Below are positions 1 to 32,444 of a DNA stretch of 64,000 bases, piece after piece. The DNA lies in the NCBI GenBank assembly GCA_037349105.1, contig JAYJMM010000094.1, positions 1,922,001-1,986,000 of the forward strand, read 5' to 3'. The stretch comes from Limnomonas spitsbergensis (taxonomy: Eukaryota; Chlorophyta; Chlorophyceae; Chlamydomonadales). The position numbers were made by a program, and so were the translations under genes. Each line of letters starts with the position of its first letter. Positions within the stretch are counted from its first letter, which is position 1. A model generated the notes under the pieces. It was not told where the DNA came from. It did no database searches and worked only from the letters and a program-made list of their open reading frames with translations.

Positions 1-105
1 CCCATTTGATACCTTGATGCGCTAAATGCCGAATCCAAGCTGATGTTTGATCCCCCGTAAGCATAGCACCATATAGCAGCGTGGGCTGGCTGCCATTAAG
101 CAACA
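1..105 (-). pseudogene. Degenerate second copy of PREP exon 157-302 (3' half plus donor)
   Basis: On the minus strand this stretch repeats the exon end: GGCAGCCAGCCCACGCTGCT, then a disrupted stretch, then GCATTTAGCGCATCAAGGTA, which matches the real exon end and its GT donor at 155-156. Indels break the frame in the YGYGGFNIS segment, so it is not a usable exon. It lies in the intron just downstream of the real exon. Confidence 0.8.
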
Positions 106-156
106 GGCCCTTTCTAGATCTCCACCCTTTTTGAAAACCCTGAACCCATTGGATAC

Positions 157-3100
157 CTTGATGCGCTAAATGCTGGCTCCAGGCTGATGTTGAAGCCTCC
201 ATAACCGTACAGCAGAGTGGGGTGGCTGCCGTCCAGCTGCAGGCCCTTGCGATGCGTGATGAACATAGGCACGCGGGTTCCGTCCTTGCTGGGTACAAAC
301 ACCTGAGGGGGTCAGGGGTCAGGGGTTCAACGGAGGTCAGGGGTCAGGGGTTCAACGGGCCAAGGGGCCAAGGGTAAAGGGGTAAGGTACATGGGGCCAG
401 AAGCAAGAAGAAAAAACAAGGTGCCAGGCGCAAAAGGCCAAGGGGCCAGGGGGCCCAGAGCAAAAGCAAGGTTCCAAGGACCAGGGGCAAGAGGCCAGGG
501 GCAAGAGGCCAGGGGCAAGAGGCCAGGGGCAAAAGGCCAGGGACAAGAGGCCAGGGGCAAAAGGCCAGGGGCAAGAGGCCAGGGGCAAGAGGCCAGGGGA
601 CAGAGGCCAGGGGCAAAAGGCCAGGGACAAGAGGCCAAGGGCAAGAGGCCAGGGGCAAGAGGCCAGGGGCAAGAGGCCAGGGGCAAAAGGCCAGGGACAC
701 GAGGCCAGGGGCAAAAGACCAGGGGCAAAAGACCAGGGGCAAGAGGCCAGGGGCAAGAGGCCAGGGGACAGAGGCCAGGGGCAAAAGGCCAGGGACAAGA
801 GGCCAGGGGCAAGAGGCCAGGGGCAAGAGGCCAGGGGCAAAAGGCCAGGGACAAGAGGCCAGGGGCAAGAGGCCAGGGGCAAAAGGCCAGGGGACAGAGG
901 CCAGGGGCACGAGGCCAGGGGCACGAGGCCAGGGGCCAGGGCTGATCAATCATCAATGCCCAAAGCAGGTGTCCTATACAGGGTTGGGAGTCAATGGCCT
1001 AGTTCTGGGCTGCAAGCTTCATCACCCTGCCTATGAATTAAAACCAGGAAGATGTGCACAAAATACGGGATTACCGGTATTAAGACAAAAGACTTGAAAG
1101 AAATGTACAAACTGACAATTGCCCAACATCACAAACTGTCCCAGGCATGCATCATCTAGAGGAAGCCGGAGTCTACCAGTCTACCAGTCTACCAGTTTAC
1201 CAGTCTACCAGTCTACCACCTGCAGCCCCGTCCCTCACGCCTTAAAACACATAACACGCACACACACGCGCGCACACACACACCTGTGTGGTTGTGAAGT
1301 CTTCTGCTTTGTGTGGCACCTGAAGCTCTGTCCGCCGGAACAGCTCAGGATCCACCTTGGGCTGCGCAAGGTCCATGCGGTAGGTAGCACCTGCATGGGA
1401 CAAAAGAACGCACAGACACAAGTCACAAGCATGTTAACGCACGGCAACATCACGGCTGGAAGCAGACAGGTCAAAACAGCACAAAAGGAACCTTGGGCTG
1501 CGCAACGTCCTTCCAGTAGTCAGCACCTGCCTAGTTTAGGGTTTATATTAATTTAGTAAGCACCTGCCTAGTTTAGGTTTTATACTAATTTAGTCAGCAC
1601 ATGCCTAGTTTAGGGTTGAGGGGTTAAAACCCTAATCAAGGTCCTTCCAGTAGGCAGCACCTGCTTAGTTTAGGGTTGAGGGGTTAAAACCCTAATCAAG
1701 GTCCTTCCAGTAGGCAGCACCTGCTTAGTTTAGGGTTGAGGGGTTAAAACCCTAATCAAGGTCCTTCCAGTAGGCAGCACCTGCTTAGTTTAGGGTTGAG
1801 GGGTTAAAACCCTAATCAAGGTCCTTCCAGTAGGCAGCACCTGCTTAGTTTAGGGTTGAGGGGTTAAAACCCTAATCAAGGTCCTTCCAGTAGGCAGCAC
1901 CAGCTTGCGATGAAAGATACACAGATAAAAGTCACAAGCCTGTTCTGCGGAGAATACCGCAGCGCCGTTGCCGGCGGTAGACAGAGCTGAAGAGCTGAAG
2001 ATCACAAGATACACCTTGGACCCAGTGATGTCCCTGCAGTGAGTTAAACTGCACATGCCGGAGGGACGGACCGACACTCCCGGTAGTCACAAGCATATTA
2101 CTGTAGATCGGATATGCCTTCCCTTGAGCATAAAAACGGATTTATCTCATACTGCCCCCAGGGCGAACTGACGACAAAAACTTCCGACGGACAGCTGACG
2201 TCGTCAGTCGATAATGAGTAATGCCATGGGTCCCTCATAAACAAACAACTTCAAATATGAGGGAAGGCAATGCAACCTCCTTCATCACAGAGGAACAGCA
2301 GTACAGCACGCGATTCAAGATACACCGATACGAGCAGGCCCGAACAGCCGAATCCCTCAACGACACCACACATCCAAAGCCAGCGAGGGGCACCCCTCAC
2401 CTGGCTCTGCTCACCTTGACTCACCTTAAAATGCGCACCCAGGCTGTTTTCCTTATGTAAGCGTCTCAGGTTTCTAGGGTTGGGCGGCCGGTCTCACACC
2501 TTCTTAAGTCCCAGCAAAAGGAAAGCGAGGGCCCTCCCTCACCAGGCTCTGCGAAGGACTGGAAGGAGAAGAAGAGCTCCGTCTCCTTCCGGCTGCAACT
2601 GATCCCGGACACAGACCCGATGCCAGGGAGGGGTAGCTCGCGCACCAGAGCCCCGCTGGACAGCTGGCAAAGCTGCAGCACGCCGCACACGTCACGCAGG
2701 TACCTAGAGGTGGCATGCAGCCATGCACTTGCTTAAGTCCCAGCAAAAGAAATGCGGATCAGGATCAAGGGAGGGTGTCGGTGGAGTGCTGGGTAGGGAT
2801 GGTTTTAAGCATTCCAAGCTACCTTAGGGGGTGTGCCGGGCCAATTGGGATCGTGATCCGTAGAGGCAATTCGTGAGTGCTTGGTAGGGATGACTTCAGA
2901 GCACGCCAAGCTACATAGGGGGGTCCTACCGGGCCGCCACCGGGGTGATGTGGATTGCTCTTCATGGAGTATATCCTGTGGTGTTTGGTTAAGACGATTT
3001 TAGAGTCCCCTAAACTACCTTCGGGGATCTGCCAGGCCGCCCCCACCGGGCCGATGGGGATCAAACCTTGACCGGCCCAACCGCAGGCGGCCTGAGCAGC

Positions 3101-6100
3101 AAGCCTGTTTACCCCCCTCCCATATGTGCAGGCCGTGAAGTATCTAGATTGTAGCTGAATCACCCTAACCAAATGACGCATTATAACCCCCCCCCCCATC
3201 CTCACCTGAGCACCAGGTTGTCCCCCTTTAGCGAGAAGGCGGACTGCAATACATACTTGTCATGCCAGTTTAGGGTTTAGGGTTTAGGGTTCACCAAGAT
3301 CCTAAACCCAAAGCCCCTTCTCACCTGAGCACTAGGTTGTCCCCCTTTAGCGAGGGGGCGGACTGGAACACATCCTTGTCATGCTAGTTTAGGGTTCAAA
3401 GTTCACCGAGATCCTAAACCCTAAACCCTACCCCCCCTCTCACCTGAGTACCAGGTTGTCCCCCTTTAGCGAGGAGGCGGACTGCAATACATCCTTGTCA
3501 TGCTGCGGCACCAGGTCGGGCCACGACGAGGGCGGGGAGCGGGGCGCCGCCAGGTCAGTGTGAATCACCCTTCACAAAAAGATGGGAAGTGTGGAGGAGG
3601 AACTCGACACCAATTCTTAATGAAAGAGAATCAGCCAGGAGCTAGCATCCAGATAGAGGACTTCCGCAGAGGGGGAATCAGCAAGGATCCATTCAGAAAG
3701 AGGCAGGCAGAGGGTCCATTCAGACAGAGGCAAGGAGCCTGCATTCAGATAGAGGACTTACGCAGAGGAGGAATCAGCAAGGATCCATTCAGAAAGAGGC
3801 AGGCAGAGGGTCCGTTCAGACAGAGGCAAGGAGCCTGCAGTCAGATAGAGGACTTACGCAGAGGGGAATGACAGAAAAAACATGATGTGGGGAAGCTCGT
3901 GCAAGGTCTGGGAGCAGGTGCAAGGGGGGGTCAACTCAGGATAGCAACCTGTATCTGGGCTAGCCCCCCACCCCCCTGCTGACCTGTATCTGGGCTAGCC
4001 CCCCCCCCCCCTGCTGACCTGTATCTGGGCTAGCCCCCCACCCCCCTGCTGACCTGTATCTGGGCTAGCCCCCCCCCCGCCCCCCTGCTGACCTGTATCT
4101 GGGCTAGCCCCCCCCCCCCCTGCTGACCTGTATCTGGGCTAGCCCCCCCCCCGCCCCCCTGCTGACCTGTATCTGGGCTAGCCCCCCCCCCCCCCCCTGC
4201 TGACCTGTATCTGGGCTAGCCCCCCCCACCCCCCTGCTGACCTGTATCTGGGCTAGCCCCCCCCCCGCCCCCCTGCTGACCTGTATCTGGGCTAGCCCCC
4301 CCCCCCCCCCCTGCTGACCTGTATCTGGGCTAGCCCCCCCCCCCCCCTGCTGACCTGTATCTGGGCTAGCCCCCCACCCCCCTGCTGACCTGTATCTGGG
4401 CTAGCCCCCCCCCCGCCCCCCTGCTGACCTGTATCTGGGCTAGCCCCCCCCCCGCCCCCCTGCTGACCTGTATCTGGAGTAGCCCCCCCCGCCCCCCTGC
4501 TGACCTGTATCTGGGCTAGCCCCCCCCCCCCCCCCTGCTGACCTGTATCTGGGCTAGCCCCCCCCCGCCCCCCTGCTGACCTGTATCTGGGCTAGCCCCC
4601 CCCCCCCCCCCCTGCTGACCTGTATCTGGGCTAGCCCCCCCCCCCCCCCCCCCCTGCTGACCTGTATCTGGGCTAGCCCCCCCCCCCCCCCCCCCCCCCC
4701 CTGCTGACCTGTATCTGGGCTAGCCCCCCCCCGCCCCCCTGCTGACCTGTATCTGGGCTAGCCCCCCCCCCGCCCCCCTGCTGACCTGTATCTGGGCTAG
4801 CCCCCCCCCCCTGCTGACCTGTATCTGGGCTAGCCCCCCCCCCCCCCTGCTGACCTGTATCTGGGCTAGCCCCCCCCCCCCCCTGCTGACCTGTATCTGG
4901 GCTAGCTTTCCCCCCTCCCTACCCTCTCTACACCGCTGACCTGTATCTGGGCTAGCCCCCCCCCGCCCCCCTGCTGACCTGTATCTGGGCTAGCCCCCCC
5001 CCCGCCCCCCTGCTGACCTGTATCTGGGCTAGCCCCCCCCCCCCTGCTGACCTGTATCTGGGCTAGCCCCCCCCCCCCCTGCTGACCTGTATCTGGGCTA
5101 GCCCCCCCCCCCCCTGCTGACCTGTATCTGGGCTAGCTTCCCCCCCTCCCTACCCTCTCTACACCGCTGACCTGTATCTGGGCGCCTTGAGGTTGGTCAT
5201 GAAGGAGAAGTGGGTCCCCTGGTTAGCGACGTAGTTGTACGATGCATCAAAGTTGTCAATCAGCTTGATGACAGGTAGCTTCTTAGCACCTGCACGTCAT
5301 GTGGGGGTAAAGGGTTGGGGTTATGGGTGTTGAAGTTGTACAACGCATCTAAGTTGTCGATCAGCTTGACGACAGGTAGCTGCTCAGCACCTGCACATCA
5401 GGTTGGGGTTATGGGTGTATAAGGTGTACGACACATCAAAAAGTTGTCTGTTGCTCCGTCAAAGATAGGTCCCCCAGGTCCCCATGGTGTCCACTAGGCA
5501 TCCTCCTCACGGTGGCCTGGCGCGCACTAAAACGAACGAGCTTTTGAGGCGTCCCAGCCCTTAAGCAGAGCTAAGCACATACGAAGCGGAGTACGTTATT
5601 GCAGGTGTGTGTGTTTCATTGCTCACACCCCCACACAGCCATGCCAAAATCCATCCCACCCGCCTGCCAATCCCCCTTCCCTGTCTCTGTGCGTATAAGT
5701 TTAGGGTCATACAGTTAAAAGCCTGAACAAGGCTGACGTCTTCCCCTCCCCTCCTTTCCCGCACTTCCTTCCCCCGCCCTTTTCTAAACAAGTCCAACGC
5801 CGTGAAGTTGAAGGACCCCAATGAGGCTTCTGAGGCTGAGAAAATGTGACATCAAACCCCCATGCCCTCCCCCCCCCTGCCCTCCCCCCCGTGCCCTCCG
5901 CCCCCGTGCCCTCCCCCCCCTGCCCTTCACCCCCCCTGCCCTTCAACCCCTGTCCTCCCAACTCTCTAGTCCCCCCCATCCTGCTGGCGTCCCCTCACTT
6001 CAGTTCCCACCCTGCCCTCCCCACCCTGTACTCCCAACCCTACTGGTGTTCCCCCCCTGCTCCCCCCCCCCCTGCTGGTTTCCCCTCACTCCAGTCCTCA

Positions 6101-9100
6101 CCCTTGATAAAGAAGTCAAAGGTCGTGAAGTTGAAGGCCCCAGATGTGGGCGACTTCCCGATGAGGCTCAGGTCCACGTAGAAAACACGGTTTGCCGGCT
6201 GGCAGCCCTCAGACACATACAGCATGAGGTAACTGCACACAAGGGTATGAACATTCAGGGGTGTGAACAGACAGTGGTATGAAAAAACAGGAGTGTGAAC
6301 ATACAGAGATGTGAACGGACAGGTGTGAATAAAGTCAGGTATGAACACAGGAGTGTGAATGTACAGAGGTGCGAACAGGCAGAGGTATGGACACAGGAGA
6401 GCGAACGTGCAGAGGTATGAACAAACAGGAGCGTGAACATACAGAGGGATGAACAAACAGGAGCGTGAACATACAGAGGGATGAACAAACATAGGTATGA
6501 ACAGACAGAAGAGTGAAAAACTACGGCAGGGGGTCCAAGCAGCAGGGCTTGCTGCGCCAGCCCCTCACGGCCATGGACCGTGATGTAGCTGATGTGTAGC
6601 TGAATGTGCTAACGCAAACACTGCTTTACACCGGCCCTCAACTGCCATCATACGTGAGCTAAGCGCTACAATCCTAATAGGGTGATCAGACATGACATGC
6701 AAATCTCTCCCCATCCCCACCCACCCTCCGCCCATCCACCCACTGTCACCCCTCCCCCCCCTCACCCCCCCCTCATCTGCCATCATCTGCCACCTCAGCG
6801 CAGCACATCCTCTTGGGATGGTCAGGCACAGGACAACACCACCTCCCTTCCGCCCACCCACTCATCTGTCTGCCCCCCTCCCCCCTACCCTCCCTCTGTC
6901 TCACCTGCCATGATCTGTCACCTCAGCGCTGCACATTCATTGAAGATGATCAGGCATGGCGTACATGACCACCTCCCTTCCGCCCCTCCCCCCTTTCCGG
7001 CCTTCACCTCCTTCTGCCCCCCCTCTCACCTGCCATCATCTGTCACCTCAGCGCTGCACATTCTGTTGGGATGATCAGGCATGGCGTACACGACGGCATC
7101 CTCAGCTTGAGGCGTCCCTAGCACATGGTAGCAGAGCAGCTACAGGGAGGGGGGGAAGGGGCAATGGTATACAACGAGGTAAAAGAGAGGGGGGGGGAAG
7201 GCCATTGGTAAATAACAAGGTAAAAAAAGGGGGGGAGGGGGAACTGGCATAGACAAGTAGGTAAAACAGGGGAGGGAGGAGGGGGGCCGAACCTGGACCC
7301 ATTGGCCAAACGGGTCGATGCGGCGTTGCAGTTAAAGCAGCCAATATGAAGACAGACGGCGAAGCATCGAAACGAGCGACCTGGCAGTCCCTGTTGTTGC
7401 CCAGCGCGCTGCCTTGGTCTCGCCTTTTAAAGGTGGAGGTCTAGTCCAAACTTGCGGCCCTAAAACGCTGAAGCTGTCAAGCATGCTGCCTTGGGCTCAT
7501 TTTCAACGCGAAGGTCCACGACTCCACGTCAAGGGTGAAGCCCCAAACCATCTCGTTGCACAGCGCCCTGCCCGTACCTTGCTTTTAGAAGGCTACAGGT
7601 TCAGAACATCTTGAACGCTGAAAACCCCACTTCTAACCAATGCCCTACCGGACATGTTACTCAAAGGATAGGGTTTAGGTAAGACCTGCAACCCTTGCAG
7701 TGGGCCCCATTCGCTGCCTTGACCTCATGTTTGCAAGGCTCGAGGTGGGGGTTAACCCTGGACCCCAAAATCCCTGCTGCGGCCCAGCGCGCCCTGCCGG
7801 TTTAGGGTTCAGAGTTTCAGGTTTAACCTACATCCTGAGGGCAGCACATTCACCTAATTGATGTTGTTTTAGGTCTCAGTCAGTGCCGAGGGTTTGGGTT
7901 CACTTTTTCCAGTGTAACCTAGATCCTTAGGGCAGATCCCACCTGGTTGATGTTGCTTGCGGTCATGGTGCCCATGCTATAGGGGTCAGGGTTCCAAGTG
8001 TGTGACCTAGATCCCAAGTGCAATAAATGCACCTGGATGTTGCTGCTGAGGGTATCCATGATGAGGGTCAGGGTTTAGGGGTCAGTGCCGAGGGTTTTGG
8101 GTTCAGTGTTTCCAGTGTAACCTAGATTGTAAGGGCAGCTCCCACCTGATTGATGTTGCTGATAAGGGTATCCATGCTGAGGGTCACGGGTTAGGGTTCA
8201 GAGCTGCTGGTGTGACCTAGGAATCTAGGGGCAGCTAAGTGTGGCCTAATAATCTAAGGGCAGCTCCCACCTGATTGATATTGCTGTCGGTCTCGGTGCC
8301 GAGGTCTGCCTTCTTCGGGTCAGCGTACCTTCATGGAAGAGAAAGAGAGGGGGGGCAGGGGGGGCATGTGGCTTTTCCCTTGAAGACCCCCTTCAAAACA
8401 AAAAAGCATGTGGCTCTTTTCCTATAAGACCCTTTTAAAACATACAAAAAACAGGTCCTCCTTGTCGCATTCCAAAAGAGGCCTCGGAGCACCAACGTCA
8501 AATTACCGTAGACAACGAATCAAACAAAATAGCTTGACCCTTCTAGGATCTGCGTCCTCACGAGGCTGTCCACCCTTCGGCTGAACGGCAGTCATCACAC
8601 GAAGAAGGCGGGCTCCGGAATCCACTGCCTCCAGCTGACGCTTGAGAAAATGAACACACACAAACCTCACCTCTGGTAAAGGTCTTGCAGTTTACATTGT
8701 ACGGCTCTTCAGCTACTGTTTAGCTACACCACAGCCTACGACCTTGAGTACCTGGAATGGCATGCCCTGCTGTCGAGGCCGCCGGCCAGCCAAGATTTCG
8801 TCCCCATCGGCCCAGTGGTGGCGGCCTAGCAGATCCCTGAAGGTAGTTTAGCGTACTCTAAGATCGTCTCTAACAAACACCTCAGAATATCCTCCATAGA
8901 GCACAATCCCCATGGGCCCAGTGGTGGTGGACCCGTGGCCTGCCAAAGGTCAAATACACACTTAACTTAACACCAGTGTCAGACCCCATCCGGCCATCCA
9001 CTCTGGAGAGAAAACGTGAGGCCAAGTGATGGCAGGGGTGAAGCTGCAGAGGGTTGAGGGAATGACCCGCAATACAGTGCCCCCCACACATGCCTGGGCA

Positions 9101-12100
9101 CTGAATGCTCACAGCCTGGGCCAAGCCATTTCACAGTTCATCGCTGATGCCCCTGCCCTCCCCAGAGCTCCTGTCTGATCTAGGAAAAGAAAAGCAATGC
9201 CAAATCCACAGCCAGAGCGGCCGTCAGGTCGCTTCAGCTGTGGACTTGACATTGCTTTTATTTTCCTAGACCAGGAAGGTCTAGGAAAATAAAAGTAATG
9301 AAAGCCCTCAGGTCGCTAAAGCGCGGTCTCTCCATCATGAACTCTTCACCTGTAACTCTTAACCCACGGGGGCAAAGTACGGGGTTTTGAACCATTGGAA
9401 GCTGCAACCCATTTGATGCTTCATTGCATCCCATATTTGATCCTAGTTCATCACACCCCATACCCCATACCCAATACCCCATACCCCATACCTCATACCC
9501 CATACCTCATACCTCATACCCCATACCCCATGCCTCATACCCCATACCCCATACCTCATACCCCATACCCCATACCTCATACCCCATACCTCAAACCTCA
9601 TACCCCATACCTCATACCTCATACCCCATACCTCATACCCCATACCTCATACCTCATACCCCATACCTCATACCCCATACCTCATACCCCATACCTCATA
9701 TCTCATACCTCATACCCCATACCTCATACCCCATACCTCATATCACACACCCCATACCCCATACCCCATACCCCATACATCATACCTCATACCCCATACC
9801 TCATACCCCATACCTCATACCTCATACCCCATACCTCATACCCCATACCCCATACCTCATATCACACACCCCATACCCCATACCTCATACCTCATACCCC
9901 ATACCTCATACCCCATACCTCATATCACACACCCCATACCCCATACCTCATACCTCATACCCCATACCTCATATCACACACCATACCTCATACCCCATAC
10001 CCCATACCTCACACCCCATACCTCATACCCCATACCTCATACCCCATACCCCATACCTCATATCACACACCCCATACCCCATACCTCATACCTCATACCT
10101 CATATCTCATACCTCATACCCCATACCTCATACCCCATACCTCATATCACACACCCCACACCCCATACCCCATACCTCATACCCCATACCACATACATCA
10201 TACCTCATACCTCATACCTCATACCCCATACCTCATACCCCATACCTCATACCCCATACCTCATATCACACACCCCATACCCCATACCCCATACCTCATA
10301 CCCCATACCTCATACCCCATACCTCATACTTCATACCCCATACCTCATACCTCATACCCCATACCTCATATCACACACCCCATACCCCATACCTCATACC
10401 TCATACCCCATACCTCATACCCCGTACCTCATACCTCATATCACACACCCCATACCCCATACCTCATACCTCATACCCCATACCCCATACCTCATATCAC
10501 ACACCCCATACCTCATACCCCATACCCCATACCTCATACCACATACCTCATACCCCATACCTCATACCCCATACCTCATATCACACACCCCATACCCCAT
10601 ACCCCATACCCCATACTTCATACCCCATACTTCATACCTCATACCCCATACCCCATACCCCATACCTCATACCCCATACCCCATACCTCATACCTCATAC
10701 CCCATACCTCATATCACACACCCCATACCCCATACCCCATACCTCATACCCCATACCCCATACCTCATACCTCATACCCCATACCTCATATCACACACCC
10801 CATACCCCATACCTCATACCCCATACCCCATACCTCATACCCCATACCTCAAACCCCATACCTCATATCACACACCCCATACCCCATACCTCATACCTCA
10901 TACCCCATACCTCATATCACACACCATACCTCATACCCCATACCCCATACCTCACACCCCATACCTCATACCCCATACCTCATATCACACACCATACCTC
11001 ATACCCCATACCCCATATATCATACCTCATATCACACCCCATATCATACCTCATACCCCATACCTCATACCTCATACCCAATATCATACCTCATACCTCA
11101 TATCACACCCCATATCATACCTCATACCCCATACCTCATACCCCATATCTCATACCCCATATCACATACCTCATACCCCATATCACACCCCATATCATAC
11201 CTCATACCCCACACCTCATACCTCATACCCCTTATCACACCCCATATCATACCTCATACCTCATACCCCACACCTCATACCTCATACCCCATATCACACC
11301 CCATATCATACCTCATACCCCATATCACACCCCATATCATACCTCATACCCCACACCCCATACCCCATACCCCATATCACACCCCATATCATACCTCATA
11401 CCCCATACGTCATACCCAATATAACACCCCATACCATACCTCATACCTCATACCCAACACCCCATACCTCATACCTCATACCCCATATCACACCCCATAC
11501 CCATATCACACCCCATACCCCCGTATCACACCCTATACCCCATACCTCATACCCCATACCTCATACCTCACACCCCATACCTCATACCTCACACCCCATA
11601 TCATACCTCATACCCCATACCCCATGCCTCATACCCCATACCCCATATCACACCCCATACCCCATCATAGTTGAATGTTCCATTCCATTTTGATGTCAAT
11701 TATCTCATTTGATCCCATGCTTGATCCCATCATGCTCGAACCCATTTGAGCTCATCCTTGACCTCAGCCATGATCCATTTCATCCAATACTGCATCCCAT
11801 GCGCCCACGCCCAAGATTTTACTGTCCATTTCCTAGGGGGAAACACAAACGAGTTTCAATGCAGTGAAATGTTGCTCGTTCACCATTTTGCTGCATTGAG
11901 GCCGACTTGCACTCTTTTCCACGCCCTCCCCTGCGCACCTGTTGTAGAAAAACCCCTTGCTGTCGTGCGTCCAGGACATACTGCTGAACTTGACAAACTC
12001 CAGCTTGTCCTCCAGAGGCTGCGGGACACCCTGCGGGCTGATGGTCATCACCTGGAACGACATGAGAAGGGGGGGGGGAGCAGACTTTAAAGACGTTCAG

Positions 12101-15100
12101 TTGTGCAACATTGGATGCATGACTTCCGGGCGCTTGCCACCCAGAAGCGTCGCGCTAGGAAAGGGAAGGACCGGAAACAGTTTCCGTACGCCGTGATGTG
12201 AAGGGAATCCCTGTAAATCTCGACACAACTAGCAATCTGTCATCCTGTCCCCTTGATTTCACCAGCGCCCCCTCAAACCATATACTGTGTTGCAGCTGAA
12301 TCAACGGTAGCTGAATGAACTGTGGCCGAGGCAACCCAACATATACAGAGTGCCACACCGCTTAAGGCGATGGCTGATTGATTGCATGGCAGCTTGCCAA
12401 GTGACTAGTCAGTTTACGGTGCCCAAACAGGTTTAAAGACTGGTACCCTGCAAGAACAAATTGCAGTATATTCTGGGAGGGCCCCGTAACTTCCTTTCAA
12501 TTTGCAAGGCAAGCAAGCCCAGCATTGCCGCTGTCGCACCCGCATGTTCCGAACACTTTGAATTGTTACGTCCCCTGCATCGGCACCTTACCATTGGCTC
12601 ACCTCATGCCGCACCTCACATGGGCCATAACATTATCAAAGCCACCTCCACACCCATCCACACCTTGTTAGACCAGTCTGAGCCCCTCCGCACCTCCTTG
12701 TTTGACCAGTCTGAGCCCCTCCGCACCTCCTTGCTTGACCAGTCCGAGCCCCTCCACACCTCTCCATACCTTGTTGTCTGGTCAGTCTGAGCCCCTCCAC
12801 ACCTCCTTGTTTGACCAGTCCGAGCCTTTCCACCACCCCTCCACATCCCTCCACACCTGGATGTTCGACCAGTCTGATCCCCCAGAACTGAGGCTGTAGG
12901 ACAGCAGCTTGCCATCCTCGCTGAACTCGATGCCCTGAACGTGTTGGACCCACAGAATGAATCAACACAAGCAGGGTACAGGCTGGTTTGAGGGTTGATT
13001 ATAGCAGGGAACTCTAGACTCGATTCCCCGCGCATGCCGCATGCACCAGCAGTTCAACGCTATCACAGTCTGAGCCGGGCAAGGGCATCCTTGCTGAACT
13101 CGAAGCCCCGCACATGCCGCATGCACCAGCAGTTCAAAGATATCGTAATCCGAGTCTGCTGAACTCCATGCCCTGAACGTGTTCACCAACAGCGCAAATA
13201 AAAAAATGCAGGGCTTTAGCGTTAAGGGTTCCTATATCTAGGATAAGGTCGTTAAGGGTCTGCCCTTACCCCTTCTACCGAAACTGTACCACCTATTCAC
13301 ACATTTTAGATACCTTCAGCCCAGCTCACTCCACACTACCTTCAGCGACACCTTCCCCATCGCTATTGACCATAACTAGTATGTGTGTACACTGAAGGCT
13401 TTACCCAGCCCACACCTCACCCACCCAGCACCCTGGGTGGGTGAGGGCCGCACCCTGGGCCGCTGGGTGGGTGAGGGCCGCACCCTGGGCCAGTGTTGCC
13501 GCAACACTGTTCCCTCTACATTTAAATACCGTATACATTGTGAACCAATCACCCAGCTCCCCCCCTACCCAGCTCCCCCCCCCACCCAGCTCCCCCCCTA
13601 CCCAGCTCCCCCCCCACCCAGCTCCCCCCCTACCCAGCTCCCCTCCCCACCCAGCCCCCCCCCCTACCCAGCTCCCCCCCCACCCAGCTCCCCCCCTACC
13701 CAGCTCCCCCCCCCACCCAGCCCCCCCCCCTACCCAGCTCCCCCCCCACCCAGCTCCCCCCCTACCCAGCTCCCCCCCCACCCAGCTCCCCCCCCCACCC
13801 AGCTCCCCCCCCCACCCAGCTCCCCCCCCCACCCAGCTTCCCCCCCACCCAGCTCCCCCCCCCACCCAGCTCCCCCCCTACCCAGCTCCCCCCCCACCCA
13901 GCCCACCCAGCCCCCCCCCACCCACACTGCACCTTGAGTGACACTGTCCCGTCCTCACTCATGGTGTTGGGGTCCAGCAGTACAGAGGGTCTGCCCTTGA
14001 GGCTGTCCATCGTGTACAGCACGTACTGCTGCTGCAGGCCGCTGTTGTGGTAGTAGTAGTACCGCTCTAAAAGGCAGTACAGTATGAATGCAGTCAGACC
14101 ATGGACTTAAACCCAGACAGGCGATATGGTTTGATGCTAGGGTTTGGGGCTAAGGGATGGAATCCTATACCCTATACCCTTATCTAGGATGATACACCGG
14201 CATACCCTGGACTCTCCCCTGGCAAGCGCTTCAGATCAAACTTAGGGTCTGGGGCTTAGGATTTGAACCCTTAACCATGTACCCTAATTTAAGATAATAA
14301 ACAGGACTGCATACAGGCGATTGACTCTCCATCTGACAGGAACTTGATTTCAAGGTTTGGGTTTAAAGCTAAGGTTCAGGAATCCTACACTCTAAACCCT
14401 AGTTTTGGATACTAGACAGCGAGATTCAAGCCAAGCTGTGCACCCCCCCAGCATGAGTCAGGGTTTGGGGCTTAGAGGGTTAGGGTTAGGGCTGCAACCC
14501 TACACCGTCAACCCTAGGCTCAAACTAGGCTAGTACATTGAGGCTGCAGTCACACTTTGGACTCCACCCTGACAGGCGCAGCAACGGTGTGGCAAAGAGA
14601 GCTTTAGGAGTTGCAAAATTTCAAATCCAGTCGAGGTTTGTGCAATGGACGCGTGCATATACCTGCATGCGTGTCACGCATGCCTCCTAGATCCCTCTGT
14701 CCTGATCCCGACAGTTGACGGCTGATTGCATCCTATTAACATACAAGGAGGACCAGTCAGTGACCGGGCGTCACAAGAGAAGCTGGCACCAAAGCTGGTT
14801 ACAAAGGTACGACCTGTACCACAGAGAGCCCCAGCAAGCACTAGAGGGCGACCCTGGGACACCCTGGAGCACAGCTGCCCCCTGACAGCCCTGTAACACC
14901 GAAGGCCCTACAGTCCTGCAGTCCTCCAAACCCTACCAGCCCTTTCAGCCCTGCCAGTCCTGCAACCCCAAAGGCCCTGACAGCCCTGCAGTCCTTCCAG
15001 AAGGCCCTGCCAGCCCTACAGTCCTGCAGCCCCTGACAGCCCTTCAGTCCTGCAACCCCTGACAGCCCTTTCAGCCCTTCAGTCCTGCAACCCCCTGACA

Positions 15101-18100
15101 GCCCTTTCAGCCCTTCAGTCCTGCAACCCCTGACAGCCCTTTCAGCCCTTCAGTCCTGCAGCCCTTTCAGCCCTTCAGTCCTGCAACCCCTGACAGCCCT
15201 TTCAGCCCTTCAGTCCTGCAACCCCTGACAGCCCTTTCAGCCCTTCAGTCCTGCAGCCCCTGACAGCCCTTCCAGCCCTTCAGTCCTGCAACCCCTGACA
15301 GCCCTTCAGTCCTGCAACCCCTGACATCCCTTTCAGCCCTTCAGTCCTGCACCCCCTGACAGCCCTTTCAGCCCTTCAGTCCTGCAACCCCTGACAGCCC
15401 TTTCAGCCTTTCAGTCCTGCAACCCCGAAAGCCTTTCAGTCCTGCCAGCCCCAAAGACACTGACAGCCTTTCAGTCCTGCAAACCCGAAGGCCCTGACAG
15501 TCCTTTCAGCCCTTCAGTCATGCAGCCCCCAAGGCCCTGCCAGCCCTTCAGTCCTCTAACCCCTGAAAGCCATGAAGCCTCTGCAGTGTTTCAAAGCTGA
15601 GCCCTGCAGTGTTTCAAAGCTGAAGCCTCTGCCATCCCTTCAGTCCTGCAGCCCGAAAGCCCTATCTCTGTATAGGCCCTGCCAGCCCTTCAGTCCTGCA
15701 GCCTCGAAAGCCCTATCTCTGTATAGGCCCTGCCAGCCCTTCAGTCCTGCAGCCTCGAAAGCCCTATCGCTGTATAGGCCCGGCCATCCCTTCAGTCCTG
15801 CAGCCTCGAAAGCCCTATCGCTGTATAGGCCCTGCTAGCCCTTCAGTCCTGCAGCCCGAAAGCCCTATCTCTGTATAGGCCCTGCCAGCCCTTCAGTCCT
15901 GCAGCCTCGAAAGCCCTATCTCTGTATAGGCCCTGCCAGCCCTTCAGTCCTGCAGCCTCGAAAGCCCTATCGCTGTATAGGCCCTGCCAGCCCTTCAGTC
16001 CTGCAGCCCGAAAGCCCTATCTCTGTATAGGCCCTGCCATCCCTTCAGTCCTGCAGCCTCGAAAGCCCTATCGCTGTATAGGCCCTGCCAGCCCTTCAGT
16101 CCTGCAGCCTCGAAAGCCCTATCGCTGTATAGGCCCTGCCATCCCTTCAGTCCTGCAGCCTCGAAAGCCCCATTGCTGTATAGGCCCTGCCATCCCTTCA
16201 GTCCTGCAGCCTCGAAAGCCCTATCGCTGTATAGGCCCTGCCATCCCTTCAGTCCTGCAACCTCGAAAGCCCTATTGCTGTATAGGCCCTGCCATCCCTT
16301 CAGTCCTGCAGCCTCGAAAGCCCTATCTCTGTATAGGCCCTGCCAGCCCTTTAGTCCTGCAGCCTCGAAAGCCCTATCTCAGTTTAGGCCCTGCCAGCCC
16401 TTCAGTCCTGCAACCTCGAAAGCCCTATCTCTGTATAGGCCCTGCCAGCCCTTCAGACCTGCAGCCCCAAAAGCCCCATTGCTGTATAGGCCCTACCAGC
16501 CCCTCAGCCCTGTTAGCGTACAGTCCTGCAAACCCGAAGGCCCTTTCAGTCCCACCAGCCCTTCAGTCATGCAATTCCGAAAGCCCTTTCAGCCCTGACA
16601 GCCCTACATTGCTCCAAACCCGAAGGCCCCTCAGCCCTGTTGTCCCTACCGCCACGCTTGAAGGGGGTGCCGAACTTTGGATAATCGTACAGCTGCACAT
16701 CAGGCGTGGACACAATCAGTGACAGCTATCAGAGTCGGTCACGATCAGTAAACAAAATCAAAGGACGCAAATAAAGCATGGGGAGGACAGTAGGGATGGC
16801 CAGGGCAATCTGAAGGGCCCTCCATTTGCAGAACGGGGTGGGTCGGAGAGATGGAGGTTTAGCAGGGTTTAGCGACGAGGTGAGAGAAGTGCATCAGGGC
16901 TTTTTGCAGCAAGGGGCCGACACGTGCCTTAAACAGTCTCACGCATCCGCCTGACAGGCACCTAGCTCACACGGACGCCCGCAATCGAATAGTTGAGGGT
17001 TCAGAGTTTGCATTATAAGTGGTATACTGGCAGGGATCTTGTTGCGGCGGCGGCGAGGGCCTGCACAGCGGCGGGGAGGACCCAGAAGCAGCAGTGGCCT
17101 GAAAGATGTCCCAAGCCAGAGGCTTGGTAGCCGGACTAGCTGCCATGCTTACGAAGAGCCAAATGATGCCCTCTCGGCCCCCTCAGCTGCAGCCCCCTCA
17201 GCCGCAGCAGTGGCCTGAAAGATGCCCCAAGCCAGAGGCATCGTAATGATGTCCCTGACCCACCTTAATTTGGGGACCCAATGGCTGAAGGAGGGTTAAG
17301 GGTTTGAAGTTCAGGTATTGTGTGCAGCAGGGTAGGGCAGCGTTTGGTCTCAGCCCGGTGAAAGTTGGTGAAAGGGTTCAAGCTCTCTAGGTTTAGGTAT
17401 GATGGTATCCCTTAGCACAAGATGCCACCTCGCCTTAGTGAACAGCTGGGTCCAGAAGGGTTTGGGGTCGAGGTTCAGGGCGGTTTCAGGGGCAAACATT
17501 ACTTTCAGTGCTGTACAATCGCGCCTTGATTCATAAATCGTATAAGTAACTACGGTCCCTCCCTGGTGAAAGTAGCTAAATTTGCCTTGAAATTACGGTG
17601 ACTGAATCTCAGCTTCGAAATTCAGCCACCATTAGGATCGTCATCGGCACAGCACTGATTACTTTCCCGTGAAGTGTTCACCCTAAACCCGGCCTTACCT
17701 TTGTGAACAGCTCGCGGAAGGATTTGCGCGTCTCACACTGAGACAGCAGCTGCTCGGTCAGCTTGTTCTGGGACTCGGTAACTGAGGTCAGGTGAAGGGG
17801 GGGAGAACATGACAATGAACAGGAGGCAGGAAGACAGCAGCTGCTCGGTCAGCTTGTTCTGCGCATGCACCACTGAAAACGGGGCAACGGGCAACAGGGA
17901 AACTGACAATCAACTTGAGATCCATACGTTATTGTTCAAGTGATCCAGTGACCCTAACAGATCCCCCATCAAGTGATGATCCCTGATTAAGTGATGATCC
18001 GCATTCCGCAATCATGATCCCTGATTAAGCGATAATCAGCAATCACTGATGATTTGATCAACACATGGCGTTAGCGGAAGAGCCTTCGATAACACAACGC

Positions 18101-18679
18101 GCACTTAACCCCTCCCGAGCTGCACCGCCAGCCTGATTCCACCCCTGCCCGGGTAGCGGATCTAGGAGGGGTGGAAATGCGCAGCTGGGTGCAGTCCCCC
18201 TCTAGTAACTGAATGCCCTCTCTCCCCCCTGAAGTTGCCGGATGCCCCCTGCCCACTCTCCCCCCAGCTCTATCAACTGGATGCCCCCTCTCCCCCCAAA
18301 CAGCTTCATGTGTTCCCCATTCATACCCAAACGCTTGAACACCGATAGACAACCCTACTCTATTCCCATTCCCACCCACATGCTTGCATCTCCTCTAAAC
18401 AGCTTCATGTGTTCCCCATTCATACCCAAACGGGTCCATGACCGATGGATAGCCCTACTCCATTCCCTTTCCCACCCACGTGCTTGCATTTCCTCTAAAC
18501 AGCTTTATGTGTTCCTCATTCACACCCAAACGGTTGCATGACCAATAGGCAGCCCTACTCCATTTCCATTCCCACCCACATGCTTGCGTCTCCTCAGAGT
18601 CCGGGTCCTCCAGCCAGCGGTACGGGTCCGCCACCTTCATGCCATGCAAGTCCTCCACAATACTGGTATCTCGCCGGGT
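157..18679 (-). CDS. PREP: Prolyl oligopeptidase (family S9A), spliced, both ends incomplete
   Basis: Cytosolic serine peptidase that cleaves after proline in short peptides. Fourteen exons read in order on the minus strand: 18580-18679, 17699-17781, 16650-16692, 13933-14066, 12857-12934, 11939-12051, 8271-8328, 7030-7139, 6102-6232, 5172-5289, 3444-3569, 2543-2703, 1284-1390, 157-302. All have AG acceptors and GT donors, and the phases agree throughout (1508 nt, about 502 codons). Family landmarks in order: [176 protein letters not shown]. This covers the N-terminal cap, the beta-propeller and the start of the hydrolase domain. The Ser/Asp/His triad lies beyond the left edge. The initiating exon upstream of 18679 is not found. 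Introns are 740-3610 bp and repeat-filled. Confidence 0.95.
423..945. repeat. 14-bp minisatellite (aggccaggggcaag)n
   Basis: About 35 imperfect copies of a 14-bp unit fill most of the PREP intron 303-1283. Long reading frames on both strands here are artefacts of the repeat. The strand carrying the host gene is C-rich. Confidence 0.95.
1171..1283. repeat. 9-bp tandem repeat (agtctacc a) followed by a CA/CG dinucleotide tract
   Basis: Six copies of a 9-bp unit lie at 1171-1219, and a purine-pyrimidine alternating tract (CA with some CG) at 1256-1283 abuts the donor of PREP exon 1284-1390. Alternating tracts of this kind can adopt left-handed DNA. Confidence 0.85.
1494..1895 (-). repeat. Tandem copies of a PREP acceptor and exon start (60-bp units)
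   Basis: The real exon starts at 1390 with acceptor ..GCAG|GTGCTACCTAC. Upstream in the gene sense, one copy (about 1494-1545) keeps the acceptor and extends to GTTGCGCAGCCCAAG. Five 60-bp units (about 1590-1895) each keep GCAGGTGCTGCCTAC and GGAAGGACC, joined to a TTTAGGG-like stretch. Each unit therefore carries a potential acceptor. Confidence 0.85.
2371..2440 (-). repeat. Degenerate copy of the 3' end and donor of PREP exon 2543-2703
   Basis: The minus strand reads CAGAGCCAGGTGAGGGG, close to the real exon end GCAGAGCCTG|GTGAGGGAGG. The intronic flank ('cttaagtcccagcaaaag') also occurs twice, at about 2503 and 2733. Confidence 0.55.
2760..3100. repeat. Three ~110-bp units related to a dispersed intronic repeat
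   Basis: Units begin near 2790, 2880 and 2985 and share 'taccttcggggatctgcc' and 'ccgggccgatggggatc'-like blocks. Related blocks occur at about 8780-8945, 50630-50660 and 53630-53700, so this is a dispersed family that has been amplified locally. Confidence 0.6.
3200..3395 (-). repeat. Two tandem ghosts of PREP exon 3444-3569 (3' end plus donor)
   Basis: The real exon ends ..CATGACAAGGATGTATTGCA..CTCAG|GTGAGAGG. Near-copies at about 3306-3384 and 3203-3275 retain CATGACAAG, the CTCGCTAAAGGGGGACAACC block and CTCAGGTGAG. A run of three TTTAGGG motifs sits at 3268-3292. Confidence 0.85.
3640..3870. repeat. ~97-bp direct repeat, about 2.3 copies
   Basis: The blocks 'atccattcagaaagaggc' and 'gacagaggcaaggagcctgc' recur at 3687/3781 and 3722/3816. 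This lies in PREP intron 3570-5171. No gene is seen. Confidence 0.85.
3948..5171 (-). repeat. ~36-bp array: 32 copies of a PREP exon end with its donor
   Basis: The real exon ends at 5172 with GCGCCCAGATACAG|GTCAGCGG. The adjoining array repeats GCTAGCCCAGATACAG|GTCAGC plus a G-run of 6-25 on the gene strand; I count 32 units before the real site. One unit (near 4490) varies in the block. Each copy keeps 10 exonic bases plus the GT donor and +3 to +6 positions of the true junction. Confidence 0.95.
5290..5470 (-). repeat. Ghosts of the acceptor and 5' half of PREP exon 5172-5289
   Basis: A good copy at about 5331-5402 reads GTGCAG|GTGCTGAGCAGCTACC and continues through CTGATCGACAACTT. A more decayed one lies at about 5405-5465. 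These duplicate the start of the exon rather than its end. Confidence 0.8.
5780..6101 (-). repeat. Ghost of PREP exon 6102-6232 followed by a C-rich tract
   Basis: At 5780-5840 the minus strand carries CTTCAACTTCACGGCGTTGG and AGCCTCATTGGGG, a deleted copy of the exon end (..AGCCTCATCGGG..CTTCAACTTCACGACC). The interval 5860-6090 is pyrimidine-rich DNA with C-runs and no recognisable gene. Confidence 0.7.
6236..6515. repeat. Short tandem repeat of ~17 bp (gtgtgaacatacagagg-like)
   Basis: About 15 imperfect units alternating 'gtatgaacaaacag' and 'gtgtgaacatacag' lie directly upstream (gene sense) of the acceptor at 6233. Confidence 0.85.
6635..6965 (-). repeat. Three ghosts of PREP exon 7030-7139 (3' half plus donor)
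   Basis: Copies near 6905-6965, 6775-6835 and 6645-6695, increasingly decayed away from the real exon, repeat GCCTGATCATC..ATGTGCAGCGCTGAGGTGAC and GATSATGGCAGGTGAG. Spacing is about 125 bp. C-rich filler separates them. Confidence 0.85.
7140..7850. other. PREP intron segment: purine-rich tract and unique DNA
   Basis: 7140-7290 is a G/A-rich tract. 7300-7850 is unremarkable intron with scattered TTTAGGG-like motifs (7668, 7798). I see no gene. Confidence 0.6.
7850..8265 (-). repeat. Decayed tandem copies of PREP exon 8271-8328 and its donor
   Basis: The real exon ends AGCAATATCAATCAG|GTGGGAG. Copies near 7850, 7940, 8030 and 8145 keep a CAACATCAA(T/C)CAGGTGGGAG-like block and sometimes CTCGGCACTGA, at about 90-115 bp spacing. 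Confidence 0.75.
8330..9440. other. PREP intron segment with a foldback and a dispersed repeat
   Basis: 8780-8945 is a copy of the dispersed repeat also seen at 2.8-3.1 kb. 9178-9271 is a foldback: GATCTAGGAAAAGAAAAGCA pairs with TGCTTTTATTTTCCTAGAC across a ~25-nt loop, and the arm recurs once more at 9280-9300. No gene is seen. Confidence 0.65.
9443..11668. repeat. 2.2-kb heptanucleotide satellite (CCCATAC/CTCATAC)n
   Basis: Over 300 heptamers alternate mostly between CCCATAC and CTCATAC, with CACACAC variants marking a higher-order period; the right third is richer in ATCACAC variants. The 666-759-residue frames it contains are repeat artefacts. It accounts for most of the 3610-bp PREP intron. 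Confidence 0.97.
12661..12856 (-). repeat. ~34-bp array copying the 3' end and donor of PREP exon 12857-12934
   Basis: The real junction reads GATCAGACTGGTCGAACATC CAG|GTGTGGAGG. Five to six units read GCTCAGACTGGTCAAACAAG followed by GAGGTGCGGAGGG or AGGTGTGGAGG, so exon end, donor and flank are duplicated together. Confidence 0.9.
13060..13195 (-). repeat. Ghosts of the acceptor and start of PREP exon 12857-12934
   Basis: ACACGTTCAGGGCATGGAGTTCAGCA at about 13155-13185 matches the real ACACGTTCAG|GGCATCGAGTTCAGCG. A block with 'gcatgcaccagcagttcaa' repeats at 13042 and 13120. Confidence 0.7.
13553..13925. repeat. 17-bp C-rich array (cccacccagctcccccc)n
   Basis: About 21 units start 8-20 bp beyond the donor of PREP exon 13933-14066. 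On the gene strand this is a G-rich tract (GGGTGGGGGGG), a strong candidate for G-quadruplex folding. Confidence 0.95.
14110..14570. repeat. Decayed ~115-bp tandem units
   Basis: Four units share 'gggtttggggctaagg' and 'aaccctaaacc'-like blocks and 'ctggactctccc' tails (14150, 14245, 14355, 14470). They lie in PREP intron 14067-16649. Confidence 0.7.
14880..15600. repeat. ~35-bp array (cagtcctgcaacccctgacagccctttc)
   Basis: About 18 imperfect units of 27-38 bp, sharing the core 'ccttcagtcctgca' with the next array, so both probably expanded from one seed. Confidence 0.93.
15640..16520. repeat. 51-bp array (cagcctcgaaagccctat...)
   Basis: About 17 units of 51 bp, a multiple of three, which creates artefactual open frames. 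Units differ at a few diagnostic positions (tctctgta/tcgctgta; gccagc/gccatc), showing blocks duplicated together. Confidence 0.95.
17050..17260. repeat. Direct repeat pair in a PREP intron
   Basis: 'cagcagtggcctgaaagatg' with 'ccccaagccagaggc' occurs at about 17090 and 17208. The rest of 16700-17690 is unremarkable. Confidence 0.7.
17831..17880 (-). repeat. Ghost of the 5' part of PREP exon 17699-17781
   Basis: A 30-bp exact copy of the exon segment encoding [10 protein letters not shown] lies just upstream (gene sense) of the exon. It is preceded by an altered acceptor region. Confidence 0.9.
18300..18579 (-). repeat. ~100-bp units copying the 3' end and donor of PREP exon 18580-18679
   Basis: The real junction reads GAGGAGACGCAAGCAT|GTGGGTGGG. 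Copies at about 18370-18397 and 18470-18497 read GAGGAGATGCAAGCATGTGG and GAGGAAATGCAAGCACGTGG, each followed by the same A/G-rich flank. The units share 'aaacagcttcatgtgttcc'. Confidence 0.9.
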
Positions 18680-18764
18680 CTGTTGATAGCAGACAATAAT
18701 ACAAATTAGAGGCAGGAAATGAGTGTTTAGTATTTATTTAAAAAGAGAAACCAGGAGGCAGCGG

Positions 18765-18832
18765 TACGGGTCTGCCACATTCATGCCATGCAGGTCCTCC
18801 ACCCTGCTGGCATCACCTGGGATCTAACGACA
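18765..18832 (-). pseudogene. Ghost of the 5' half of PREP exon 18580-18679
   Basis: Reads GTGGAGGACCTGCATGGCAT and GTGGCAGACCCGTACCGCTG, encoding VEDLHGMNVADPYR before losing similarity. The exon it copies has [15 protein letters not shown]. It lies in the intron 5' of the real exon. Confidence 0.85.
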
Positions 18833-19917
18833 GAGGACCCAAGGAGGAATGCCTGTGATTTTTCTGGTGCAAAATCTGAAGGTGATTTTCAGAGCATTGA
18901 TTCAGCTAGAATTCAGCCACACCAAGCGCAGGACCTCCAATATGCTGATGTTATGCCGGACCTTCAGGCAGCGGACACATGGCCACAGACAGGTCAAGCG
19001 GTGGTGAGCATGATCAGCCAATTCGAGGCTAAAGAATAAATACAAGGACAGGTGTTACCCAAGAATAGGAGGGTAGGGGAGGACCGGAGGAGCGCAGCTT
19101 TCGGCAGCTGCACCCGCACTGCGCAGGAAGGACGTGGTGTGGGTGCAACTGCCGTCTAGACGGCAAGCCAGGGGGGCAGCATGGCAGTTTTTGTAATCCT
19201 CGTGACAAACTTGTATATATCCTCAGACAGGCCACTCCGAGAGGCACACAAATTCATCATGATGTCGCACAGTCCACACCAGCGAACCAGCGGTGAAGTT
19301 TGTGATTTTTTCAGTCCAGCAGAGCATCACATTTGATGCATGAGACATGTGCCCATCAACCGTTACATTCACTTGAACACCATCGTTTAATTTTTTAGCG
19401 CTTCAGCTACAATTCAGCTGCCTCCTGGGTTTGTTTGAGATGTGTATGTCCATCCAGGGGTATCACCTTGGGGTATTGAGAGGGGAGCACTGAGAGGCCA
19501 GTCTGGCAGGCACCTGCAACATGGGCTTGTGGTCAAGTTGGCATGGAACCATAGAGGGCATGGAGGTATGGAGGTATGGAGGCACGGTGGCATGGGGTAT
19601 GGAGTCATGGAGGTATGGTGGCATGTGACGAATGGAGGCATGGAGAAATTGAGAAACAGTAGCATAAAGGCATGGAGGCAAGGAAGCATGGGTGCATGGT
19701 GGCATGGAGCATGGGGGCACCCTAGATCCATGGTACGCATCTACAATTCAATACAATCAGGGGAGGGACAGAATTTGCGTTGTGCCAGGAAATTATAACT
19801 CCGGGGTTACATAGTCTCCTGATTGCTATTTGCTGCGGGTTCGGCTTCTGATCTTCTGAATCTCATGGATTCAAATGCAAACACGCCTCAAAGTTGTCCC
19901 ACTCGGACAACAGGTCC
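18832..19917. other. Intergenic or 5' intron of PREP; GGAGGCATGG-type tandem repeat
   Basis: 19310-19356 matches a dispersed repeat also at 53446-53490 and 63497-63572 (inverted). 19558-19715 is a degenerate ~10-bp array (ggaggcatgg/ggaggtatgg). I find no PREP first exon here, although it may be present. Confidence 0.5.
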
Positions 19918-20078
19918 TAGATCCTCGACTCACCCTTAGCAGCAGCTGACGGTATACGCACACGAGCGCGTTTCCTTGTGATTGCAGTGATGCCTCGCAC
20001 CAAGGGGTAACCTAGTACACTTATGCCCATTACGGCAGTTCCCACCATTGCGATCCCGGAAGGCGAGAACTTGACCAT
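19917..20078 (-). CDS. Short reading frame, possible first exon with a hydrophobic N-terminus
   Basis: 53 codons from ATG at 20078 to TAG at 19917. It has a hydrophobic stretch (residues 7-25, GIAMVGTAVMGISVLGYPL) followed by a basic segment (TRKRARVR), the look of a signal anchor or organelle-targeting segment. A good donor (AAGG|GTGAGT) lies just before the stop, so it may be exon 1 of a minus-strand gene. The phase does not join directly to the first recognised PREP exon. Product unknown. Confidence 0.35.
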   Translation of the reverse strand: MVKFSPSGIAMVGTAVMGISVLGYPLVRGITAITRKRARVRIPSAAAKGESRI

Positions 20079-27891: not shown

Positions 27892-28935
27892 ACACCCTGG
27901 TGCAAAATATGTCCGACTGGTTCTAATATGTACTCAAGTTCTAATATACAGGTCCATACTTTCCATACGATACTTCCACGCTACAGTGTTGTGATGTGTG
28001 TTTAAGTGGACTACTTCATCTCTCCGCGATTTTCCTTAGGACTTGCTTTGGACCCCCCACATTCCTGACACGATTCCGCGGGTTGTACACAGCTTTTGCG
28101 GGTTGTACACAGCTTTCGCATGACTTTACGCGATGTTACCTGATTGCTTTGCTGATTCCACCCATTCCTGACATGATCCGCGGGTTGTACACAGCTTTTG
28201 CGGGTTGTACACAGCTTTCGCATGACTTTACGCGATGTTACCTGATTGCTTTGCTGATTCCACCCATTCCTGACATGATCCGCGGGTTGTACACAGCTTT
28301 CGCATGACTTTACGCGATGTTACCTGATTGCTTTGCTGATTCCACCCATTCCTGACATGATCCGCGGGTTGTACACAGCTTTCACATGACTTTACGCGAT
28401 ATCACCTGAATTGCTTTGCTGATTCCACCCATTCCTGACATGATCCGCGGGTTGTACACAGCTTTCGCATGACTTTACGCGATGTTACCTGATTGCTTTG
28501 CTGATTCCACCCATTCCTGACATGATCCGCGGGTTGTACACAGCTTTCACATGACTTTACGCGATATCACCTGAATTGCTTTGCTGATTCCACCCATTCC
28601 TGACATGATCCGCGGGATTTGCTGTTCCCACCCATTCCTGACATGATCATCGACAACAGACATTGTGCTTCATGCAGCCCGATTCCCTCATCGCCCTGCT
28701 GGGATATTAAAAAATGTCACGCCATGCAGTGCATGGAGTTGCAGTGCATGCAGTTGCAAGCAGTTGCATGGCAGTGCATGGAGTTGCATGGAGTTGCATG
28801 CAGTTGCATGCAGTTGCAAGCAGTTGCATGGAGTTGCATGGCGTTGTGTGGGGTTGCATGGCAGTTGTGCATGGAGTTTCAATCAGTTGCATGGGGTTGC
28901 TTGGAAGTGCATGGGGTTGCTTGGAAGCTTCCAAG
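27892..28935 (+). repeat. Left terminal inverted repeat of the large element
   Basis: Structure: ~180 bp unique end; about six ~84-bp units (CATGATCCGCGGGTTGTACA..CCACCCATTCCTGA) at 28070-28620; ~110 bp unique (28625-28725); then a ~10-12-bp array of GTTGCATG/GAGTTGCATG words (28730-28930). Confidence 0.92.
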
Positions 28936-31400: not shown

Positions 31401-31401
31401 A

Positions 31402-32125: not shown

Positions 32126-32234
32126 CGGCCGGCGTAGCCAATCAAACTAAGCAATTCTTGTGACATCGCGTAAGTCACATGTGTGACAGATGTGCACAAC
32201 CCGCAGCATCATGTCAGGGATGGGTGGTATCAGT

Positions 32235-32440: not shown

Positions 32441-32444
32441 CCGC

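Follow-up and report, generated by a model that had tools for sequence, protein, structure and literature searches.

Copies of exon edges in the introns of a green algal prolyl endopeptidase gene and their probable origin in local tandem duplications across splice junctions

Introduction

How an intron comes to contain copies of the edges of its neighbouring exons is a question raised by the minus-strand gene for prolyl endopeptidase (PREP) in the window, the 64,000-nt stretch of Limnomonas spitsbergensis DNA analysed here. Long introns are commonly attributed to transposons. In this gene, which takes up the leftmost 19.5 kb of the window, local repeats account for 55% of the nucleotides in 14 introns, and many of them resemble the adjacent exon. 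An explanation must account for the similarity itself, for the kind of event that produced it and for the part played by the junctions.

The PREP gene

From E0 to the stop codon the PREP gene comprises 20 exons, five of which lie to the left of the window in a stretch (L009) that also supplies the stop codon. The 14 exons placed at the coordinates of the original prediction are all bordered by AG and GT, and their spliced product is a single open frame that matches the solved prolyl endopeptidase 9q5g (residues 3-502, E 3.9e-158). The nearest named protein homologues come from green algae, with Chlamydomonas euryale at the top (68%). The shortest introns measure 260 and 377 nt at present. At the 14 window junctions, with nine residues considered on each side, the PREP protein exceeds six algal homologues by no more than one residue, located at E9-E10.

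Exon edges match their own introns

In a strict test, 30 exon-only nucleotides from each edge were compared with the edge's own intron, with all other introns and with 100 shuffles of the own intron. Over all 20 exons, own-intron copies were found at 17 of the 38 internal edges (donor 10/19, acceptor 7/19); for E1-E14 within the window, nine of 14 donor and five of 14 acceptor edges beat everything. None of the 38 edges matched the intron on the opposite side of its exon, and none matched in inverted orientation. Margins are thin at 18679, 17699, 6102 and 5172, where the lead over the best shuffle is no more than 1-2 points. When edges and introns were re-paired at random in 20,000 draws, the mean score fell from 23.6 for own introns to 14.9 (sd 0.65, max 18.1). 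The alignment of intronic repeats to adjacent exon edges, which was the core of the original prediction, is therefore borne out by 13 of the 14 edges that it listed. All five acceptor edges (1390, 5289, 12934, 17781, 18679) and eight of the nine donor edges (157, 3444, 5172, 6102, 7030, 8271, 12857, 18580) pass, while the donor edge at 2543 fails the exon-only test and passes only when the intron part is included (score 38, threshold 26). One further donor edge, 17699, passes without having been listed.

Plain growth of micro- or minisatellites, with a chance likeness to exons, could be thought sufficient, since several introns do carry satellites devoid of exon sequence. Examples are 481-936 and 9451-11665, the latter a 2.2-kb array of about 320 copies of a 7-nt unit that occupies most of intron 6, downstream of exon E6 (11939..12051, minus strand), neither edge of which is copied. 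However, exon-only edges find their match in the adjacent intron alone, and the shuffled pairing refutes satellite growth as the full explanation, as had been anticipated; we regard it as very improbable.

Self-comparison of positions 1-20000 of the window yields 162 repeat pairs. All 45 pairs in the window with at least 8 exon nucleotides join an exon to an adjacent intron, and 115 of the 117 intron-only pairs in PREP are confined to one intron. The copies are thus direct and local, neither inverted nor dispersed, as in tandem genomic duplication; part of them stand in head-to-tail arrays of a unit, as in intronic minisatellites, and several array units cross a junction.

Introner elements were also considered. 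Within PREP, where their signature was sought, none of the 45 exon-bearing pairs involves a non-adjacent intron, and they were rejected as a full explanation.

Copies along the gene

PREP exons and their copies all lie on the minus strand and are given here in the order of the exons. No copy was found at either tested edge of E0 (19467..19513). E1 (18580..18679) has donor-side copies at 18341-18395 and 18440-18495, in a 100-nt unit, and an acceptor-side copy at 18756-18814 that starts 9 nt within the exon. The acceptor-side copy of E2 (17699..17781) lies at 17832-17861, agrees at 30 of 30 nt and starts 11 nt within the exon; a weak donor-side copy is found at 17433-17464. E3 (16650..16692) and, by the strict test, E4 (13933..14066) are without exon-edge copies. 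Repeats start about 12 nt into the donor-side intron of E3, and C-rich repeats run from about 9 nt into that of E4. E5 (12857..12934) is copied on both sides, at 12645-12686, 12687-12719 and 12749-12795 for the donor and at 13086-13116 and 13158-13192 for the acceptor.

The three donor-side copies of E7 (8271..8328), at 8114-8161, 7911-7972 and 7835-7891, all contain the GT. Those of E8 (7030..7139) form a 125-nt unit in which the GT is kept at 6899-6964 and lost at 6765-6828 and 6637-6694, and the single donor-side copy of E9 (6102..6232), at 5743-5826, has lost it as well. E10 (5172..5289) is accompanied by acceptor-side copies at 5334-5416 and 5422-5448 and by a donor array at 3947..5150, in which a 39-nt unit that includes the last 12 nt of E10 and its donor site is repeated about 32 times. 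The GT is kept in all 20 array copies scored. With some 30 repeats of its donor lying downstream, E10 offers a natural experiment on how splice sites are chosen.

E11 (3444..3569) has donor-side copies at 3292-3384 and 3185-3265, in a 119-nt unit. The short donor-side copy of E12 (2543..2703), at 2382-2410, includes nine of 10 exon nucleotides and is the one that fails the exon-only test. E13 (1284..1390) has an acceptor-side copy at 1475-1530 and others within a 60-nt array (1637-1664, 1697-1724, 1757-1784, 1817-1844, 1877-1939). E14 (157..302), finally, has a donor-side copy at 1-112 and another to the left of the window, at about 9870-9970 of L009.

E12 is also bracketed by a 31-nt repeat pair, 2497-2527 and 2726-2756, with an offset of 229 nt and one copy in each neighbouring intron. 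The pair is possibly the remnant of a whole-exon duplication.

The copies behave as non-coding DNA

At most edges with a copy, at least one copy runs without interruption from exon through the splice site into intron, an indication that DNA and not RNA was duplicated. The prediction that copies include the splice site applies to these edges; it does not extend to 17781 and 18679, whose recognisable copies start 11 and 9 nt inside the exon, or to 17699, whose copy ends at the junction. Among copies that span the site, the donor GT is kept in 34 of 37 and the acceptor AG in seven of nine.

Such survival of splice dinucleotides might suggest that the copies are alternative or decoy exons retained for regulated splicing. 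However, 20 of the 37 donor copies belong to a single homogenised array, and none of the 41 copied sites with an intact dinucleotide (each located by taking the GT or AG closest to the predicted position, up to 6 nt away) would give an in-frame, stop-free product: 39 would lead to an in-frame stop and the other two to a frameshift. Together with the lack of an extra run of residues in the protein, this predicts that the outer splice sites are the ones in use. Differences between exon and copy are spread over codon positions 1, 2 and 3 as 37, 22 and 53 (27 kept copies at 16 edges, with two arrays reduced to one or two copies each), whereas the functional exons of two chaperonin paralogues, described below, differ as 15, 3 and 115. 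The contrast (P 4e-11, with copies from the same intron not being independent) implies that the copies behave as non-coding sequence. Since, in addition, copies are not the same between paralogues, a function as alternative or decoy exons is highly unlikely. Duplication of mutually exclusive or alternative exons was rejected for the same absence of frame and coding constraint.

At 897 aligned exon sites, the 27 kept copies show about 12% divergence from the exon. This speaks against an artefact of assembly, which a repetitive region might otherwise invite, as do the similar copies seen in the two paralogues and on other contigs among the sampled stretches; of all the explanations weighed here, the artefact is the least credible. 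The exon and intron parts of the copies are 87.5% and 86.1% identical, respectively (P 0.46). Equal divergence of the two parts is contrary to simple decay, in which two neutral intron copies should diverge more. Nor do copies as a rule decay with distance from the exon, as had been proposed: of the nine edges that have multiple copies, three (7030, 8271, 1390) show lower identity farther out and six do not.

Beside 17781, the exon stretch 17741-17770 recurs at 17832-17861 as 30 nt without a difference, in flanking sequence of poor similarity. This island may stem from gene conversion or from a recent new round of copying. Like the equal divergence of the exon and intron parts, it is unlike simple decay and counts against the explanation by tandem duplication that we prefer.

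Tandem duplication across the junction

The most probable explanation, to which we assign a probability of about 0.7, is that the exon-edge copies in the PREP introns are local tandem duplications across the exon-intron junction that were absorbed into the intron. Each event would duplicate the tail of the exon together with the head of the intron, or their mirror image at the acceptor, over tens to a few hundred nucleotides. The exon-proximal splice site would remain in use and the second copy would turn into intron; junction-spanning copies could be absorbed in this way because the original outer splice site would stay in use. Duplications lying wholly within exons, or splicing at the inner copy, would give a broken protein and would be removed. 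Some units may then have grown into arrays through later slippage. The frequent capture of junctions likely reflects the shortness of introns at the onset of growth, with duplicated units of roughly that length. Exon-edge copies of this kind would preserve the history of intron growth as fossils do, and the constrained exon would be the reference against which to read them.

Chaperonin paralogues

Two copies of a TCP-1 family chaperonin gene, L029 and L030, allow the process to be viewed in related genes. The six intron positions examined are common to both and their exons share 87.3% identical bases, yet the intron lengths are 641, 2868, 588, 842, 227 and 756 in L029 versus 255, 3417, 778, 1620, 329 and 445 in L030. 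With 30-nt edges, own-intron copies are found at three of 12 edges in one paralogue and at two of 12 in the other; with 60-nt edges the numbers rise to six and three. The copy at the acceptor of exon 5 is common to both paralogues, and the acceptor of exon 4 is copied in both, to a different extent. One paralogue alone has copies at the acceptors of exons 3 and 7, the latter limited to exon interior, and at the donor of exon 4; an 89-nt copy over the exon 6 acceptor, AG included, belongs to the other apart from a weak 21-nt match. Private copies suggest that junction copies were likely still arising after the paralogues split, with loss from one of the two as a possible alternative.

Are junctions the seed?

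According to the original prediction, tandem duplication is seeded at junctions. A process that targets them is conceivable, in that breakage or template switching could be favoured near splice junctions, for example by co-transcriptional RNA-DNA hybrids. The private junction copies of each chaperonin paralogue fit such targeting. Repeat coverage does not: it amounts to 0.40 within 20 nt of the 28 window junctions versus 0.55 at 50-150 nt into introns (Wilcoxon P 0.06), a direction opposite to seeding. Likewise, the position of the junction within 13 duplicated units, using values entered by hand, fits a uniform distribution (KS P 0.21).

What random placement can achieve was simulated with random tandem duplications in growing introns, rejecting those wholly inside an exon or containing one. 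The observed set, whose curation by hand is a weak point, consists of 26 repeat families, of which 13 cross a junction and 18 cross it or stop within 12 nt of the exon. Starting from 150-nt introns, 11.9 crossing families and 16.3 crossing or near ones are expected (P 0.39 and 0.27), so that random placement is enough. The expectations drop to 10.0 and 13.6 with 200-nt starting introns (P 0.11 and 0.04), to 8.6 and 11.7 with 250 nt (P 0.03 and 0.005) and to 6.3 and 8.6 with 373 nt (P 0.002 and 0/6000 draws), a length that the available part of one report gives as the intron mean of Chlamydomonas reinhardtii (PMC8633747). The excess at 250 and 373 nt, and already at 200 nt if near-stops are counted, favours targeting and counts against our preferred explanation. 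On the other hand, if 40% of the intron-internal families are assumed to have decayed out of sight, the crossing count is ordinary up to 373 nt (P 0.13, for a count of 25 families). Exon-anchored copies may also be recognisable for longer owing to the constraint on the exon, a further assumption to which the equal divergence of exon and intron parts lends no support.

Random duplication in short ancestral introns, together with selection, accounts for most junction copies, and an excess appears only if those introns measured at least about 200-250 nt. Since the tests of coverage, position and simulation give a mixed answer, a modest excess at junctions is possible; targeting as the main cause appears unlikely. 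What stands of the prediction is duplication that takes in junctions, as seen in the direct orientation, adjacency and contiguous pieces of the copies and in the differences between paralogues, while seeding by the junction is not established. It is equally doubtful that junctions are hotspots of tandem duplication genome-wide, with a process linked to transcription or splicing that copies exon edges into introns. If they were, introns would expand from their edges and accumulate decoy splice sites, all of which the spliceosome would have to pass over.

Other loci in the genome

Exon-edge copying extends beyond PREP to some of the other genes sampled. From the assembly (260 Mb, 124 contigs) we sampled five contigs with nineteen 10-kb stretches placed at round coordinates, and added the window from 19.7 to 64 kb. 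PREP codon use picked out 89 coding-like segments, most of them unverified as exons, and 74 had long enough flanks. Twenty of the 89 overlap a local repeat, some only within themselves. Of the 148 edges, 21 beat every flank from other loci, where about 0.5 would be expected from the rate among other pairings; segment heads match the upstream flank in 13 of 74 cases and tails the downstream flank in eight of 74. There were nine far-side matches among the 148 edges and no inverted ones, and 127 of the 148 had no match. Adjacent flanks thus match far more often than non-adjacent ones in the sample, which is the outcome that the original prediction had staked itself on.

Four of the 21 matches lie in repeat-rich frames and may be discounted (both ends of L022:6762-6887, L013:2587-2919 and L024:837-944), and several score just 25 against 21-24 for the best other flank. 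Six of ten copy-bearing segments searched against Pfam have a family at E ≤0.05; RrnaAD and RNase_PH are above the curated cut-off, and the remaining four are two kinase exons, ABC1 and SAC3. Among eight alignments inspected, six show diverged copies crossing an apparent exon edge (L026 twice, L027, L012, L023 and L020) and two (L017 and L025) are overlapping self-matches, which are uninformative. The copies are not present in every gene: the exons of another S9 peptidase (L001, L002) have no local repeats, L003 lacks them at its exon, and L004 and L008 have repeat overlaps whose matches are not clearly exons. Local direct-repeat coverage ranges from 0.00 to 0.62 over the 19 stretches (median 0.20) and is 0.45, 0.51 and 0.57 in the three 10-kb pieces that contain PREP.

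Other features of the window and genome

The PREP introns (23.1 kb) contain the telomere motif TTTAGGG 19 times, where other words of the same letters have a mean of 2.7 and a maximum of 31; in the two chaperonin loci (15.7 kb) its count is 14, where the mean of same-letter words is 1.9 and the maximum 9. Some of these copies lie within arrays, and one contig, C1, starts with a long TTTAGGG array. The motif could hint at break repair in introns.

Further along the window, tandem units at 28060-28616 and, inverted by reading of their consensus, at 39994-40550 enclose an open frame (33218-34402) that is recombinase-like by its motifs and lacks Pfam support. A second enclosed frame weakly resembles a RuvC-type resolvase (Pox_A22, E 0.008, below cut-off). 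To judge from this arrangement, 28060-40550 is probably a 12-kb mobile element; a scan of viral contigs gave no match to its recombinase. A probable spliced gene on the plus strand at 42335-53408 contains a stretch that resembles DUF7798 at E 9e-5, short of the curated cut-off, and a protein search with its guessed joined product returned no homologue. At 59997-61769 a long leucine-rich-repeat open frame is built of in-frame 69-nt tandem units, and since 69 nt is also a natural length for a leucine-rich repeat, this says little about duplication as such.

Comparison with known systems

Duplication of gene pieces has been linked to introns before. Gao and Lynch reportedly described internal gene duplication in 2009, and Zhuo is said to have traced human introns to tandem arrays in 2007. 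As in PREP, gene pieces and their splice sites are duplicated locally in these systems; the reported outcome is duplicated exons, introns or alternative splicing, whereas in PREP it is mainly exon edges that are copied and that then decay.

The genes of Chlamydomonas reinhardtii are likewise rich in tandem repeats. The accessible part of a report on them gives repeat counts only (PMC8633747), whereas in PREP many units can be seen to contain neighbouring exon sequence along with the splice site. Among titles and the openings of abstracts, mostly outside subscription journals, we found none that presents duplication across junctions as a common way for introns to grow.

In the AGGT model of intron gain by tandem genomic duplication (Rogers 1989; Hellsten 2011), as outlined in parts of later papers (PMC3443670, PMC4974935), direct duplication likewise furnishes a second splice site. 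That model, in the same outline, makes introns from exonic segments, whereas in PREP existing introns lengthen. The nearest parallel comes from potato, where, according to the accessible portion of the report, a tandem duplication across an intron-exon boundary copied the splice signals, as in PREP, and created a new intron (PMC4974935). The potato duplicate is described there as yielding a new intron and added exon sequence, whereas the PREP copy would be swallowed by an existing intron, and repeatedly so; the prediction for PREP includes neither a new intron nor an added run of residues, and the copies lie inside existing introns. What differs is the outcome, namely that existing introns have probably been lengthened repeatedly, in several genes, by taking in the edges of their exons.
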